A DNA stretch of 64,000 nucleotides from an uncultured Chloroflexota bacterium (lineage in GTDB: Bacteria; Chloroflexota; Chloroflexia; Chloroflexales; Chloroflexaceae), in assembly GCA_937120965.1 (NCBI GenBank), contig CAKZKA010000035.1, positions 1 to 64,000 on the forward strand, in the 5' to 3' direction. Positions 2,518-34,919 of the stretch are shown here, one piece after another. The first letter of the stretch is position 1. Each line of letters opens with the position of its first letter. A model generated the notes under the pieces. That model was not told the origin of the DNA. It worked only from the letters and a program-made list of their open reading frames with translations, and searched no databases. The position numbers were made by a program, and so were the translations under genes.

Positions 2518-3513
2518 CTATGCCCCCCCTGCCTGATGCCGGCTTGCCCCGATCAGATCGGCGATAACCACGAGCCGCTGAGTGTCCCAGTTGGTGCAGG
2601 TGATCAGGGTAAGCGTTGCGTTCGCATTGGCGCCGAGGACGTGAACATCGGTCGGCCACACCACCTTGATCGCGCCGACCCGGTAGTGGAAGCGGTAGCT
2701 GGCGGTGTCCACGAAGATGTCGTCGCCGATCTTCACCGAAGGTAACGGCATAAAGACCCCGCCGCGCAAGCCGGCGTGTCCGGCAATAACCACGTTCCCC
2801 GCCTCGCCTGGATCGCCGGTTCCGTACAGGTAGCCCGCCGCGTAATCCGCCTCTTGCCAATCCAGACCGTCGGCGTAGACCGTGATCACGGGGGTGTCAA
2901 TTCCCACCGCGGGCACCTGGATCCACTCGGGCGCCTCCGAGTTCTCGCGGTACGCGAACGCTGGCTCTAGAACCGGATCGGGGACCGGGGCTGCGGATGC
3001 GACCCCGGCACTCCGATAGGGAAGCACGTGCAGCGCCGGTTGCAGCGGCGTTGCCCGCAAGCCCGATGGGTGTGCCCTGGCCGGGGAAGGCGCCGGCTCG
3101 CTCTCTACCGGACGGGCTGTTGCCGGTTGTGGCAGGAAGGCCTGGCTCGGAGCAGATACCGGAACCGCCCCCGCGGGCCGCTCGCGTACCGGCGCGGGTG
3201 GCGCGAACAGGCGATCGTAGACCGGGCCGTTGAGCAGCCAGATGGCGAAACAGAGCAGTGCGCCCAGGCCCAGTGCCTGCGCGCCGCGGAGCAACAGCCG
3301 GTCAAAAGGCGTTTCTCCAGCGACGCTCGCGCGCTCTTGCTGACCCTGGCGGCGCAGCCGGGGCGGCGAGGCCCAGGAAGGCCGTCCGTTGCCGGCCCGC
3401 GGCGTCGCCTCGATTGACGATGGCTCCGCTCCGGTCGCCTCAAGCAGCGACCGCAGCAGCTCGTGTGGAACACCCGAAGCGGGATGTCCCTCGGGGGCCG
3501 GAAGGTGTGACAT
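2518..3513 (-). CDS. Sortase family transpeptidase (paralogue 1)
   Basis: This 331-residue membrane-anchored cysteine transpeptidase joins surface proteins to the envelope. A cytoplasmic N-terminus of about 75 residues leads to a membrane helix (about 78-95). A Pro/Ala-rich linker (about 103-180) follows, then the sortase barrel. The catalytic triad can be read as H246 (GHAG), C306 (TLITC) and R313 (TQR). The start is the ATG at 3513 with a modest AAGG upstream. It is closely similar in layout and motifs to the second sortase at 30137-31039, but no adjacent protein has an evident sorting signal. The class is uncertain; the TLITC motif with a short C-terminus fits class D/E-like enzymes. Confidence 0.88.
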   Translation of the reverse strand: MSHLPAPEGHPASGVPHELLRSLLEATGAEPSSIEATPRAGNGRPSWASPPRLRRQGQQERASVAGETPFDRLLLRGAQALGLGALLCFAIWLLNGPVYDRLFAPPAPVRERPAGAVPVSAPSQAFLPQPATARPVESEPAPSPARAHPSGLRATPLQPALHVLPYRSAGVASAAPVPDPVLEPAFAYRENSEAPEWIQVPAVGIDTPVITVYADGLDWQEADYAAGYLYGTGDPGEAGNVVIAGHAGLRGGVFMPLPSVKIGDDIFVDTASYRFHYRVGAIKVVWPTDVHVLGANANATLTLITCTNWDTQRLVVIADLIGASRHQAGGA

Positions 3514-3559: not shown

Positions 3560-3971
3560 GATCACGCCAGGCCCCATGCGCATGGCGCACAACGCCAGAA
3601 TGAAAATATGTGTTCTTGGGAGGGCGTAGCCCTCCCAAACCCTCCCCGCTGGCAGGTTGTTTCCCGGGAGGGGGTGGGAGCGCGGCGGCGCCGCGCCCCT
3701 ACGCCCGAACCCTCCCGGCGCGGGGGGCGTGCCACCCTGGCAGGCAGAGGGTTGGGGAAACCGGGTTTCCCCGTGTTCATAACTCGTGCTCACGTGGCCA
3801 TAAACATTATATGCCAGAAGCAGGTGACTTTGCAATTGGCAGTCCATGCGTATGCAGGGCTGATGCAACGTTGCTCGAGCCCTGTATGCGTATGGGTTCA
3901 CCCTTTTTCTGGGAGCGCGGGCGTCCCGCCCGCAACGGCCCTGGATGCTTCCCGGGAGCGCGGGCGTCCCG
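3560..3971. repeat. Repeat mosaic upstream of alaS
   Basis: The gene-free stretch 3514-4152 holds a P3 variant (about 3577), P2 at 3618-3636, P5 near 3683-3711 and P1 at 3754-3772. An imperfect 18-bp inverted repeat follows (3844-3861 with 3878-3895; 15 of 18 pair). Two direct copies of GGGAGCGCGGGCGTCCCG lie at 3911-3928 and 3954-3971. No coding signal was found. Confidence 0.8.
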
Positions 3972-9186: not shown

Positions 9187-9720
9187 CGGCCGGGGAAGCC
9201 CGGGTCTCCCCGCGCCCCTGAGGTGAACATACGGGGAAACCGGGTTTCCCCACCTGCGGTGAGCCTGTCGAACCGCACCCCTGCCGGTGGTGGCGCCAGC
9301 CGCCCCTAAGGGCGGTTGGGAAATGGGGAAACCGGGTTTTCCCAACCCCCTCCCTGAGGGGAGGGTGTGGGAGGGCGCAGCCCTCCCAGGAAACAACCCG
9401 CCAGCGGGGAGGGTGTAGGAGGGCGCAGCCCTCCCGGGAAACAACCCGCCAGCGGGGAGGGTGTGGGAGGGCGCAGCCCTCCCGGGAGACAACTCGCCAG
9501 CGGGGAGGGTGTGGGAGGGCGCAGCCCTCCCGGGAGACAACTCGCCAGCGGGGAGGGTGTGGGAGGGCTGCGCCCTCCCAGGAAAAACCCATGTTCATCT
9601 CGTCGTTGTGCGGCGCAGCCGCATGGACGGCTGATGTGAAAATATGGGGAAACCAGGTTTCCCCATACCCCTGCCTGTGGGGGCGGCAAGCCCTCCCAAA
9701 CATACACCTGTTTTCATCGC
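9187..9720. repeat. Large repeat block with five 48-bp tandem units
   Basis: The gap 9178-9823 has no gene. P1 copies lie at 9191-9211 (worn), 9233-9251, 9325-9343 and 9646-9664, and P6 near 9256-9282. Five contiguous 48-bp units start at 9360, 9408, 9456, 9504 and 9552. Each carries P2 plus ACAACYCGCCAGCGG. P3 lies near 9608-9625. The units touch each other without unique spacers, so this is not a CRISPR. Confidence 0.92.
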
Positions 9721-29793: not shown

Positions 29794-29904
29794 TGGGGTC
29801 CGGCAGTGCTTCGCCCCTGCTGATCCACACATGATCTTTCCACATGACTTTACACTTCGCACCGGAATTGAAGGCGAATCGCTCATTCTGTAGGCATGAG
29901 ACTA

Positions 29905-29933
29905 TTGCAATGGTGCAGACCGGGTTGTATAAT
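29905..29933 (+). promoter_or_regulatory. Promoter of the sortase-substrate operon
   Basis: TTGCAA at 29905-29910 and a perfect TATAAT at 29928-29933 are 17 bp apart. It is the best promoter between the aminotransferase and the sortase, and implies an untranslated leader of almost 200 bases. Confidence 0.7.
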
Positions 29934-30095
29934 GATCTCTGATTATCCGGGAGATCTGCTGCCAATGAGGAGGAGCCGGGGGGTGAGGCGGAGAGGCCGT
30001 GGCCCGGAAAACCTACCCGTGAAAGTCCCGGCAGTGAGGGGTCATAAAGGCGTAGCCCTCCCAGGAACCTCCTCGTTTTATCCTGTCACTGTGCG
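29934..30095 (+). other. Structured 5' leader, no known riboswitch class
   Basis: The transcript would start near a hairpin (GATCTC 29934-29939 with GAGATC 29951-29956). CTGCC at about 29960 can pair with GGCAG at about 30031. Inner stems GGCC/GGCC and CCGGG-type pairs lie between. A truncated P2 (AGGCGTAGCCCTCCCAGGAA) is near 30049-30068. I could not match it to a known riboswitch. Structure is suggested by eye only. Confidence 0.3.
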
Positions 30096-30136
30096 GTGGA
30101 CCGCATAGCTATCCGAAGTGGCAATCGAGCCGCCTG

Positions 30137-31039
30137 ATGATACGCACACCGCGCCCGCCCGGTGAGCATGCTGGGCTTGATGATGATGATCTGCTGTGCG
30201 AACTGCTCGCGAGCGAACTCCCGGGCCGTGATGGTCAGATCCGTCCGGCGCGACTGCGGTCAGCCACCCAGCAGCAGCGCATAGCTCTCAGCGGCTTCCG
30301 CCTGCGCAACTGGGTGGATCGCAGCCTGGCAGTGCTGGAGCGGGTGCTGGTAGCGGCAGCGGTGCTTGCCTTTAGCTACTGGCTGCTCGATGGCCCGGTG
30401 CGCGATTTCTTGTATACGCGGAGCAATCCGTCTACCTCCCGAGCGCAGGCAATGGCTCCACCCCCCACACCGCCGTTGATGGTGCCCACGGCTGCCGGTC
30501 AGGTCGTCAGTGCGCCCCTGCCGTTCACCCGGCCCGAAGACGCGGCCCTTAACCCTGCCGCGCCGCGGGCGCCCCGCGAAGCTTTTCTGGCGCCCCAGGC
30601 CGTTCCGCCCGTGGCGCCCCTCAGCGAAGATCCGCGCCCCCAACGGCTGACCATGCCCAGCATCGGCGCCGATATGTCGGTCTACGAAGTCTTCGTTGTT
30701 GATGGGGAGTGGGAAGTGGCCGAATATGCCGCGGGCTACCATAACGGGAGCGCCCTGCCCGGCACCATCGGAAACACGGTCTTCTCGGGGCATGCCGGTT
30801 TGCGCGGCGCGGTGTTTAAGGATATCGGCCGGCTCAGACCCGGAGATGAAGTCATTGTTGAAACCGGGAGCTGGCGCTATGTCTATCGCGTGCGCGAGAC
30901 GCTGAATGTCTGGCCTACCCAGGTCGAGGTCATGGATCCGACCATGACGCCGGTGCTTACCCTGATCACCTGCACAAACTGGGACACGCAGCGTCTGGTG
31001 GTCGTTGCCGACCTTGCGGACGCGCGCCCGCGCTCCTGA
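30137..31039 (+). CDS. Sortase family transpeptidase (paralogue 2)
   Basis: This 300-residue membrane sortase has a cytoplasmic N-terminus (1-60), one helix (about 66-84), a Pro/Ala linker (about 95-165) and the catalytic barrel with H219 (SGHAG), C279 (TLITC) and R286 (TQR). It should cleave a sorting signal in the protein encoded immediately downstream and attach it to the envelope. Only 14 bases separate it from that gene. ATG 30137 lacks a strong Shine-Dalgarno. It closely resembles the sortase at 2518-3513, including the TLITCTNWDTQRLVV block. Confidence 0.9.
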   Translation: MIRTPRPPGEHAGLDDDDLLCELLASELPGRDGQIRPARLRSATQQQRIALSGFRLRNWVDRSLAVLERVLVAAAVLAFSYWLLDGPVRDFLYTRSNPSTSRAQAMAPPPTPPLMVPTAAGQVVSAPLPFTRPEDAALNPAAPRAPREAFLAPQAVPPVAPLSEDPRPQRLTMPSIGADMSVYEVFVVDGEWEVAEYAAGYHNGSALPGTIGNTVFSGHAGLRGAVFKDIGRLRPGDEVIVETGSWRYVYRVRETLNVWPTQVEVMDPTMTPVLTLITCTNWDTQRLVVVADLADARPRS

Positions 31040-31053
31040 AACGAGGAGTTGGT

Positions 31054-33027
31054 ATGCAGCCGCCTTCACGAGGTCGTCCATCATCGCCTGGCCGTGGCCG
31101 CACACCCGCCCGCTGGACGAAGCTGGAGCTTGCGCTGATTGTTCTCAGCATCGTGATGATCGCCTTTCCGCTCTATGCGGGAGCGATGCGCTTCGTCTTT
31201 CCACCCCTGGCGCCCGCCCAGGAAAGCACGCCTGAGCCGCCCACGGTTGACCCCGCCCTCCCGACGACGGTCGTTCCGACCAGCACGCCGCTTCCCACCA
31301 GTACCCTGGCCCCTCTGCCTACCGATACCCAGGCGCCAACGCCAACCGACACCGGCAGCCCGCAGCAGATCGTCACGGCGACCAGTATTCCAACGCCGCC
31401 TACCAATACGCCCGAACCGCCAACCCCCACCAGTACCGTAGGAGTGGCTACGCCGACGAATACGGTCGCACCCGGCACCCCCACCAACACGGTCGCACCT
31501 GGCACCCCCACCAACACGGTCGCGCCGACGCCGCCGACGAGTACTCCTCCCCCCGTGACCGGGGTTCGGGTCTTCAAGGTTGCTTCGGTCTCCGAGGCGG
31601 CGCCCGGGCAGCAGTTCAGTTACAGCGTGGCCGTGGTTACCGATAGTACTGCCAATCAGCAGGTGACCATGGAGGACGCCATCAGCCCCGAGTTGGAGGT
31701 GCTGAGCGCCAGTTCGAGTTCCGGCAACTGTACAACCGGTCAGACGGTGCAGTGTACGCTGACGATTAACGACACTAATCCAGCCACGGTGACGATACAG
31801 GTGCGGGTGCGCACCACAGTCGCCGCGGGTACCAGCATTGCCAACAGCGCCACCGCGGGCGGGCAACGCTCGGGCACGGTTGTGGTGCGGGTCAGCGGCG
31901 CGCCGGTCGCCTCTCCGACGCCTGTCGGCCCGACGGTAACCCCGGGCGGCCCGACGGTAACCCCGGGTGGTCCAACGGCAACCCCGGGTGGTCCAACGGT
32001 AACCCCGGTCGTCCCGACGCCGACCGTTCCAGGGGTGATCCCTCCGACCAGCCCCCCCGGCCCGGAGCCGCCTCCGCCACCTTCCGGCGAACAGGAGCCA
32101 GAACCGCCCGCGGCTACCGAGGCGCCACCCGCGCCACCCGCGCCGCCGCCACCAGTGGTGATACCCGAACTGCCCACTGAGCCGCCTACGGTGGTGGTTG
32201 CTCCCACCTCTCGTCCGGTGGTGCGTCCGACCGCGGCCGTTCGCCCGACCCGGGCGCCGCTCGGCCCAACCAATACCCCGGCGCCGCTCGTGCCCCTCGG
32301 CACCAGCACGGCAGCCCCACCCGCTACTCCCGGCATTACGACCGATGTCTTCTTCCGCCTGGCGAGCGACTGGGGCAGCGCCTACCCTGGTCAGCAGGTC
32401 AATTTCACCCTGGTTGTTCGCAATACCCGGCCGCCTGCCGCCGATGGGGCGAGTACGCTGCGCAACATCACGGTGCGTAGCGCCATGCCCGCCAACCTGG
32501 AGGTGCTGGGGGCGCGCGCCGATCGCGGCGTTGACCCGACCATAAGCGGCAATGATGTGAACTACACCCTCGACCAGCTCCAGTCCGGCGAAGGGGTCGA
32601 GATTACCGTTGCCACCCGCATCAGGCCCGACGTTACGGCAGGCACCCTGATCGTTGTTCAGGGCCAGTTGTTCTACGATGGTCTCAGTCCGGCCCCGCTC
32701 TTCTCAAATATCGTCTCGGTGCAGGTTGTGGGGGCCGCCCAGCCTCCGACGGCGCCCATCGTTCAACAAGTGACACCCACCACGGCGCCGTACCCGCCGC
32801 CGCGCAGCCCGACGGTGGCCCGCACAGCTACCGGCGCGCCGACGGCGACCAGTGTCCCGACCGCTACACCGTTGCCGACCATTGCTGCGGTTGCGCCGCC
32901 CTCCGCGCCACCGCCGGCGCCGCTGCCCGAAACCAGCGCCGGGGTGCCGCTCCTTGGCATCATGCTCCTGGGTGGCACATTGCTGACCCGCACCATTCGT
33001 CTGCATCGGGCCAGGAGTCGGTTGTAA
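31054..33027 (+). CDS. LPxTG-like, DUF11-repeat surface protein (probable sortase substrate)
   Basis: The 657-residue exported protein has an N-terminal signal or anchor helix (about 27-46). A long Pro/Thr-rich stalk follows, with repeats such as PGTPTNTVA and GPTVTPG. Two DUF11-type beta domains lie at about 168-280 (SVSEAAPGQQFSYSVAV) and about 430-560 (ASDWGSAYPGQQVNFTLVV). A C-terminal sorting signal follows: LPETS at 624-628, a hydrophobic stretch and an Arg-rich tail (RTIRLHRARSRL). The sortase gene sits directly upstream. GAGGAG precedes ATG 31054. The DNA of the stalk has short tandem repeats, so length may vary between strains. The role in adhesion or sheath building is inference. 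Confidence 0.85.
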   Translation: MQPPSRGRPSSPGRGRTPARWTKLELALIVLSIVMIAFPLYAGAMRFVFPPLAPAQESTPEPPTVDPALPTTVVPTSTPLPTSTLAPLPTDTQAPTPTDTGSPQQIVTATSIPTPPTNTPEPPTPTSTVGVATPTNTVAPGTPTNTVAPGTPTNTVAPTPPTSTPPPVTGVRVFKVASVSEAAPGQQFSYSVAVVTDSTANQQVTMEDAISPELEVLSASSSSGNCTTGQTVQCTLTINDTNPATVTIQVRVRTTVAAGTSIANSATAGGQRSGTVVVRVSGAPVASPTPVGPTVTPGGPTVTPGGPTATPGGPTVTPVVPTPTVPGVIPPTSPPGPEPPPPPSGEQEPEPPAATEAPPAPPAPPPPVVIPELPTEPPTVVVAPTSRPVVRPTAAVRPTRAPLGPTNTPAPLVPLGTSTAAPPATPGITTDVFFRLASDWGSAYPGQQVNFTLVVRNTRPPAADGASTLRNITVRSAMPANLEVLGARADRGVDPTISGNDVNYTLDQLQSGEGVEITVATRIRPDVTAGTLIVVQGQLFYDGLSPAPLFSNIVSVQVVGAAQPPTAPIVQQVTPTTAPYPPPRSPTVARTATGAPTATSVPTATPLPTIAAVAPPSAPPPAPLPETSAGVPLLGIMLLGGTLLTRTIRLHRARSRL

Positions 33028-33386: not shown

Positions 33387-33860
33387 CTAGGGCGTCTGGC
33401 GTGTGGAGAGGCGCCGGGGCTGCCAGCCATCGAGGGCCAGCCAGAGCATAATCGCAAGCAAGAGCCAGTGGAGCTGCTCGCGCACGATTACCAGCACGGC
33501 GACGACCTGGCGTGAGGCTGGTAGCGCCTCGTACAACCGCTGGAGGCCGATTGCAGGCGCGGCGCGGAGTTGCTCCAGAATGGCAACAATCCCCAGTTCG
33601 GCGCCGAGCGAGCCAAGCACCTGCCAGGCTACCGCCAGCGACAGGCCCACCGCCACGGCAGTCAGGATCAGTACGAGTGTGCTATACCAGGGTTGCGGGC
33701 GCGGGCGACGCGCTGTCTCGGCCCACACCACACTGCTCGAAATCAGCCCCAGCAGACATGCGGTAACTTCGGCTGGAGCTTCCCAGCGCAATTCCTGACG
33801 CAGGACCCGATCGAGGGCATCTTCCGGGTCGCGTGTGGAGGCTTCTGAAGGATCGTGCAT
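33387..33860 (-). CDS. Small membrane protein downstream of ECF sigma gene
   Basis: The family was not recognised. The 157-residue protein has a charged N-terminal region of about 30 residues, then a helix near 31-46, one near 60-85 and one near 118-145. It has no zinc-finger (HxxxCxxC) anti-sigma motif. It is the next gene after the sigma factor on the same strand, 136 bp away, the position where membrane anti-sigma factors are commonly found. That role is only a positional inference. ATG 33860 is the first start in frame. Confidence 0.6.
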   Translation of the reverse strand: MHDPSEASTRDPEDALDRVLRQELRWEAPAEVTACLLGLISSSVVWAETARRPRPQPWYSTLVLILTAVAVGLSLAVAWQVLGSLGAELGIVAILEQLRAAPAIGLQRLYEALPASRQVVAVLVIVREQLHWLLLAIMLWLALDGWQPRRLSTRQTP

Positions 33861-33996: not shown

Positions 33997-34674
33997 TCAC
34001 CTCCCGGCTGCGCCGGCCATCAGGCGCAACGGGGCGGCCCCGGGAAACGTGTCGCGGCGGTCCTCGCGACGCGGCTGCGCCACCGCGCGCGCCGCAGGCG
34101 GGTGCTCCTGGGTCTCCAGAATGGTCGCCAGACGTTCCTTCCCGCGCCGAATGTGGCTCTTTACCGTGTTCAGCGGAATATCAAGGATTTCCGCGATGTC
34201 GGTGTACTTCAAATCCTCGAAGTAATGCAGGGTTAACACCAGCCGGTAGTGCTCCTCGAGCTGCCCGAGGGCCAGGCGCACCTGATCGCGCAGTTCGCGC
34301 GCATCGAGCGCCGCGGCAGGATCGGTCCAGCGGTCCTCGTCGGCGATACTCCCAAGCTGGTCGGCCTCCTCGTCTTCGGAGGTTGGGGGCGCGATGGGCA
34401 CCTGGCGTCCGCGGCGGCGCAACTCGTCACGGCACAGGTTGACCACCAGCCGGTACAGCCAGGTGGTAAACCGGCTCTCGCCGTTGTACTGCGGCAAGGT
34501 GCGAAACAACCGGATGAACACCTCCTGCGTCAGATCGGCGGCGTCTTCGGGGTTCTTCAGCACGCTCATCGCAATGCTATACACATAATGCTGCTGGCCC
34601 AGGACGATCTGGGTCAACGCCTGGGGGTCACCCTCCTGCGCCCGGGCGATCAACTCACGCGTCGGTTCTGCCAC
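33997..34674 (-). CDS. ECF-type RNA polymerase sigma factor
   Basis: This 225-residue sigma-70-family factor has region 2 (about 25-90: YSIAMSVLKNPEDAADLTQEVF, cut to NPEDAADLTQEVF, and RFTTWLYRLVVN) and region 4 (about 140-195: DIAEILDIPLNTVKSHIRRG). There is no region 1.1 or 3 of a primary sigma. The chosen start is GTG 34674, because AGGAAGG lies six bases before it; an upstream TTG at 34710 is less likely. The C-terminal 30 residues are Arg/Pro-rich. The following membrane protein may be its regulator. Confidence 0.9.
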   Translation of the reverse strand: MAEPTRELIARAQEGDPQALTQIVLGQQHYVYSIAMSVLKNPEDAADLTQEVFIRLFRTLPQYNGESRFTTWLYRLVVNLCRDELRRRGRQVPIAPPTSEDEEADQLGSIADEDRWTDPAAALDARELRDQVRLALGQLEEHYRLVLTLHYFEDLKYTDIAEILDIPLNTVKSHIRRGKERLATILETQEHPPAARAVAQPRREDRRDTFPGAAPLRLMAGAAGR

Positions 34675-34919
34675 CGTTGACCTTCCTGGCGCTGCGACCT
34701 GCCGTGGCAATCGCGATCATCCGGCCAGGGGGCTGGCCCGGTGGAGCGATGGACCCGGCGGACGCCGCTGCGCCGTCATTACTGCTGCACTGCGCCCAGT
34801 ATGGCACAGATCGGGCCTCCCAGCATCACTCCACGGGCGGAGAGTCACCCCGGACTTTCGTCAGAAGGAACCCTACTCAAGGACTATGACGAACAACCGG
34901 CGGCAGGGGTTGCAGGGCT

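Follow-up and report, generated by a model that had tools for sequence, protein, structure and literature searches.

A conserved Chloroflexales gene pair encoding a sortase and its probable dedicated surface-protein target

The window analyzed here is a 64,000-nucleotide stretch of DNA from an uncultured bacterium of the Chloroflexaceae (contig CAKZKA010000035.1, assembly GCA_937120965.1). A sortase gene and a gene for a putative sortase target lie side by side on its forward strand, with the following features (protein residues are numbered within each product):

29836..29858, + strand: upstream box CTTTCCACAT-N3-TTTACACTTC, a possible regulator site (upstream alignment)
29905..29933, + strand: predicted sigma-70-type promoter of the two-gene unit, TTGCAA-17 nt-TATAAT (from the sequence)
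30137..31039, + strand: sortase gene, 300-aa ORF
31054..33027, + strand: putative sortase-target gene, 657-aa ORF; surface protein with a P/T stalk and two DUF11 domains
31054..31221, + strand: conserved secretion signal (alignment of 36 relatives)
31555..31899, + strand: DUF11/CLIPPER domain 1, with K175, D208, and N264 (isopeptide-type triad) and invariant C226/C234
32347..32727, + strand: DUF11-like domain 2, with an SDWGSAYPGQ signature and no Lys
32923..33024, + strand: sorting signal of 34 residues, LPETSAGVPLLGIMLLGGTLLTRTIRLHRARSRL (tail profile and alignment)

The sortase stop codon and the target start are separated by 14 nt, and the gap contains GAGGAG, which reads as the ribosome site of the target gene. 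In the upstream alignment, TATAAT was kept in all eight aligned sequences, and the promoter sequence points to sigma-70-type control of the unit. The upstream box, conserved among genus relatives and partly in the next genus, may be a regulator site. An ECF sigma factor gene and a downstream membrane protein gene, the latter possibly for an anti-sigma factor (33387-33860 and 33997-34710, both - strand), are convergent with the pair and conserved in part of the Chloroflexaceae; the sigma factor need not be involved in the pair's expression. A GC-rich leader insert (29957-30110) that is missing in congeners separates the promoter from the sortase gene. The leader looks structured, yet an Rfam search returned no match, and with its absence in congeners we rejected it as a conserved RNA element.

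The product of the first gene matched the Pfam Sortase family (PF04203; E=1.8e-26; 92.8 bits against a cut-off of 26.6) and belongs to the superfamily defined by TIGR01076 (43.5 bits; cut-off 39.35). The catalytic residues named in the initial annotation, H219, C279, and R286, were found at these positions and were invariant in 31/31 orthologues. The protein has a type II membrane topology, with a conserved cytoplasmic N-terminus and a TM helix at about residues 66-84, followed by a proline-rich linker and the catalytic barrel (about residues 165-298) carrying the three residues. Most blocks of the catalytic domain in the AlphaFold2 model were above 90 pLDDT. All matches listed by Foldseek for this model were sortases, with class E first and classes A, C, and D close behind, the best being 5go6 at 28% identity. 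The nearest named relatives came from Chloroflexaceae/Chloroflexales MAGs (86% and 83% identity), followed by those of Oscillochloris, Chloroploca, Viridilinea, Chloroflexus islandicus, Roseiflexus, and Herpetosiphon. These affinities place the window in a Chloroflexaceae MAG.

The best class-level HMM match of the sortase was the class E model NF033747 (75.5 bits; orthologues, 64-80 bits). Class E membership was nevertheless rejected, as all four orthologues tested scored below the curated cut-off of 160 bits and the target motif has Pro, not Ala, at position 2. The models for classes C, D, F, and GN gave only 23.7-52.5 bits against curated cut-offs of 140-166, and class B was not represented among the sortase models matched. 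Since every class model scored far below its cut-off, we leave the sortase unclassified. Its likeness to class E (Streptomyces coelicolor SrtE1, 5CUW; S. avermitilis, 5GO6) consists of the best HMM and Foldseek matches and of the conserved cytoplasmic N-terminus, which is reported to matter for SrtE1 (PMC5148588). The class E motif is LAXTG, whereas the Chloroflexales target has P at position 2 in 49/49 tails.

Our analysis bears out the initial description of the second product as a secreted Pro/Thr-rich protein with two DUF11 domains, a C-terminal LPETS, a hydrophobic segment, and an Arg tail. It contains three Pro/Thr-rich stretches (28-35% Pro, 16-29% Thr), and DUF11 (CLIPPER; PF01345) matched two stretches (E=3.5e-14; 53.5 bits, cut-off 24.6), while the score with TIGR04226 was 22.3 bits (below 30); the Herpetosiphon target lies above that cut-off. 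In the target model, two confident beta-sandwiches (approximately residues 171-280 and 432-558) flank a linker of low confidence. Across relatives, the tail was highly conserved, the N-terminal signal and the domains moderately so, and the P/T stretches poorly. The secretion signal comprises GRGR-x-PARWT-x-x-E, a hydrophobic segment, and a predicted cleavage site, APA|QE, after residue 55; among the 36 relatives, RWT-x-x-E was conserved, followed by a hydrophobic segment and usually by A/V-P-A|Q. Because the roughly 13 residues between the hydrophobic stretch and APA|QE are long for a signal peptide, the N-terminus could possibly serve as an uncleaved membrane anchor.

The domain 1 triad was kept in nearly all relatives, with the Lys lost in three genomes (G002, G032, and G057), and its two Cys residues were kept in all. 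These residues are consistent with the isopeptide plus disulfide pattern of DUF11 (CLIPPER) domains, for which isopeptide bonds, frequently accompanied by disulfides, are reported (PMC12617251). Domain 2 lacks Lys, so its sequence would not permit a Lys isopeptide bond. The target shares with the stalk domains of fibrillar adhesins (9IFR) a common fold (TM-score 0.75 on 9ifr) and the K/D/N pattern; unlike those adhesins, it could form the bond in domain 1 only and has no recognized adhesive domain. A likeness to integrins was rejected, the Foldseek matches being generic beta-sandwiches (TM 0.2). From the stalk architecture, a fibre or sheath role is plausible. The long stalk, the CnaA-like domains, and the presence of the pilin BcpA among the Foldseek matches of the target would also suit a sortase that polymerizes the target into a pilus-like fibre in class C fashion, leaving wall attachment to another sortase. 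However, the target has just two Lys residues, K23 and K175; the first belongs to the N-terminal signal and the second to the putative isopeptide triad, which leaves no evident pilin-motif Lys. Moreover, no minor pilins are encoded nearby, and the class C model gave 44 bits against a cut-off of 160. With pilin-type polymerization rejected on Lys content and model scores, we consider a pilus-like fibre very unlikely.

LPETS occupies target residues 624-628 and is followed by AGVPLLGIMLLGGTLLTRTIRLHRARSRL; a 15-residue hydropathy maximum of 1.97 and the final RLHRARSRL complete the tripartite layout of a sorting signal. When the organism's own 5.18-Mb genome was searched with a tail profile, the target was the one significant match (E=1.5e-18; runner-up, E=0.75). 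Since the profile picks out exactly this protein, the LPETS tail is not a chance occurrence. The LPXTG anchor model PF00746 did not match the target in Pfam at E<=0.1 or in the own-genome search at E<=10, and neither this tail nor those of relatives matched any Pfam or NCBIfam anchor model. Composition was determined from 49 tails (47 distinct; one unrelated chance pattern match was left out), giving the consensus [LN]PxT-[S,N,E,D,R]-x-G-x-P-x-x-G...R-x-[HR]-R. Position 1 was L in 43 tails and N in 6, and the motif P and T were invariant (49/49). Position 5 was always polar (S in 36, N in 5, E in 3, R in 3, and D in 2), with Gly in none. Positions 7 and 12 (both G) and 9 (P) were invariant, as were T19, R26, and R29 in a 31-row set. 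Loss of the motif or tail in homologues, the outcome that the initial annotation had set against its own reading, was not seen inside the order, where P-x-T-x-x-G-x-P-x-x-G was present in 49/49 tails.

The signal of class B sortases is NPQTN. The Herpetosiphon tail motif is NPATN (NPATS in its relatives) and shows the same N/P/T/N pattern, a resemblance that looks convergent. Outside the order, 158 genomes of the class yielded one clear tail, in genome G087, and weak partial matches were seen in G086 and two genomes of the phylum. Because the G087 tail reads IPYTGTGVPMAG, Gly at position 5 may be ancestral, as judged from this single lineage.

An earlier suggestion that LPETS would need a sortase pocket suited to Ser found no support. 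A Ser-specific pocket is not implied, because position 5 of orthologues can be S, N, E, D, or R, and LPxTS is tolerated by known SrtA enzymes. S. pyogenes SrtA has been crystallized with LPATS (7S4O) and argued to be non-selective at this position, accepting many residues (PMC9520033); S. pneumoniae SrtA takes LPXTS (PMC9126251), and putative LPXTS targets are described in S. uberis (PMC2657157). The likeness to these class A enzymes lies in the acceptance of Ser at P1' (PMC9520033, PMC9126251); the streptococcal enzymes differ in being general-purpose, with LPXTG as the main tag, and their similarity to the Chloroflexales sortase is remote. The only candidates for specificity signals in the tail are that position 5 is never Gly and that G-x-P-x-x-G is conserved after the motif.

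Gene adjacency was kept over four Chloroflexales families (in Chloroflexus, Oscillochloris, Chloroploca, Roseiflexus, and Herpetosiphon). At the family level, 41/41 genomes had a sortase match and 39/41 a target match; in the other two (G010 and G038), a contig edge falls just past the sortase or early in the target. In nearly all relatives with a covered start, the target begins -4 to about +40 nt from the sortase stop, the few larger gaps occurring where start choice or a contig end interferes. Across the 82 genomes of the order, 60 had a single full-length tail match (59 with a narrower first profile), and sortase and tail were concordant in 70, with both present in 55 and neither in 15. 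The 12 mismatches comprised seven genomes with the sortase only and five with the tail only. Eight coincided with a contig edge within or next to the target: five sortase-only genomes (G004, G010, G019, G020, and G038) with the edge inside or before the target, and three tail-only genomes (G048, G053, and G059) starting at one. In the other two sortase-only genomes, G022 and G023, LPETSTG is retained but goes with a hydrophobic segment of a different kind; genus g11 likewise keeps LPETSTG beside an altered hydrophobic segment. The remaining tail-only genomes were G021 and G062. All 11 genomes of genus g34 (G071-G081; small, 1.7-3.6 Mb) lacked both sortase and target, which suggests that the surface system was lost in this lineage.

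The flanking genes (an aminotransferase upstream; the ECF sigma factor, the membrane protein, and a V4R gene downstream) were common to subsets of the Chloroflexaceae only. The pair persists in Roseiflexus and Herpetosiphon without any of the window's tested flanking genes; it is the pair that forms the conserved unit. A mobile origin was rejected, as plasmids gave no full-length match and phages none. The original proposal of a dedicated pair is supported by the conserved adjacency, by the single tail per genome, and by the finding that sortase and tail nearly always occur, or are missing, together throughout the order.

The genome encodes five sortases, that is, four besides the dedicated one, and it is from adjacency that we infer sole use of the dedicated enzyme by its neighbor. 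In a phylogenetic tree, the C257 sortase shared a clade with sortases from Anaerolineae and Thermomicrobia. The window's second sortase (2518-3513, - strand) is a divergent paralogue, 42% identical, that grouped in the dedicated clade on a long branch. No LPxT protein lies beside it; its convergent neighbor (1846-2367, + strand) encodes a small secreted protein with a C-terminal hydrophobic segment and no LPxT. Other tags in the genome were sought by pattern and Pfam. The DNA pattern LPxT-(S/T/C/W/R/stop)-x-G occurred 85 times against 95 in the reversed control, and a genome-wide LPxTS excess was thus rejected; only three matches had a sorting-signal layout. The check for other LPxT(S/G) tails called for by the initial annotation revealed two further LPxTS-tailed proteins, both with hydrophobic and basic segments: a secreted two-domain DUF4397 protein ending in LPATSEG (L210:6449-7237, contig C305) and a small secreted protein ending in LPNTSGG (L308:3176-3724, contig C123). 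LPxTS is therefore evidently not private to the pair, since these two proteins carry it too; the private part, as far as these tails tell, is the G-x-P-x-x-G and R-x-[HR]-R extension.

Three LPxTS-x-G tails in one genome suggest a shared tag type, as would be expected if a broad-specificity sortase merely happened to sit beside one client. We judge this unlikely, given the order-wide adjacency without conserved flanks and the joint presence or absence, and the C257 sortase, with its wider clade, fits a general role better. The two additional proteins could also be the main clients of the sortase, with the tail of its neighbor acting as an ordinary membrane anchor on an uncleaved protein; the conservation of the tail is indeed stronger than cleavage alone needs. 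Yet the motif P and T never vary in the 49 tails, the g11 genomes retain the motif despite the altered hydrophobic segment, and the sortase always adjoins the target while the other two tagged proteins are on other contigs, making a plain membrane anchor quite unlikely.

We favor, with a probability of about 0.82, a two-gene operon for one sortase and a single dedicated target that would be fixed to the wall by the proposed sortase route; the sortase probably cuts and anchors this one surface protein. The genes, motifs, folds, order-wide pairing, and signal conservation are directly supported. Target cleavage, the acceptor, wall location, and a filament-surface role would follow from sortase knowledge and the reported Chloroflexi envelope, which lacks an LPS outer membrane and usually has L-ornithine in its peptidoglycan (PMC3368417). 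In the proposed route, the N-terminal signal would direct export of the target, and the C-terminal hydrophobic segment and Arg tail would keep it in the membrane. C279 would then attack the Thr of LPET, cutting at Thr|Ser, and the target would be transferred through Thr to an outside amine, most likely that of a peptidoglycan stem or precursor (ornithine-type), so that the wall would carry a fibrillar protein with a Pro/Thr stalk. A more speculative extension, which we hold only tentatively and think rather doubtful, is that the sortase reads an extended signal beyond the cut site ([LN]PxT-polar-x-G-x-P-x-x-G plus the R-x-[HR]-R end) and so is limited to one target; such a private sorting channel would derive from an ancestor with Gly at position 5 and build, on ornithine peptidoglycan, a surface layer peculiar to the filamentous cells of this order.

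One-target sortases encoded beside their target are already known from class GN (TIGR03784), which was found by comparative genomics with one sortase and one LPXTG-type target per genome in adjacent genes (PMC3237569). The Chloroflexales pair has in common with it the one sortase and one adjacent target; class GN differs in its Gram-negative hosts and in its tail and target, and its model gave the Chloroflexales sortase 23.7 bits against a cut-off of 158. As far as the literature examined shows, what is new is the lineage, the extended signal without Gly at position 5, and the one-to-one pairing throughout the order. A 2006 paper reported no evidence for the Chloroflexus homologue acting as a sortase (PMC1586193), and our search of mainly freely available papers found no characterized Chloroflexota sortase and no biochemical work on one. 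The pair matches one enzyme to one target throughout the order, and the target's defined signal escapes the anchor models now in use. The pair bears on surface building in the monoderm, filamentous, gliding cells of the Chloroflexales; the conserved residues after the cut site raise the question of what the sortase reads besides LPxT, and culturable species such as those of Chloroflexus and Herpetosiphon make the pair testable.

Two families of dispersed near-palindromic repeats were also seen in the window, both apparently mostly intergenic: GGGGAAACCCGGTTTCCCC-like repeats, with about 21 copies (for example, at 3754, 11484, 18327, and 36529), and GGGAGGGCGCAGCCCTCCC-like repeats, with about 15 copies (for example, at 9371-9515, 14207, and 43768).
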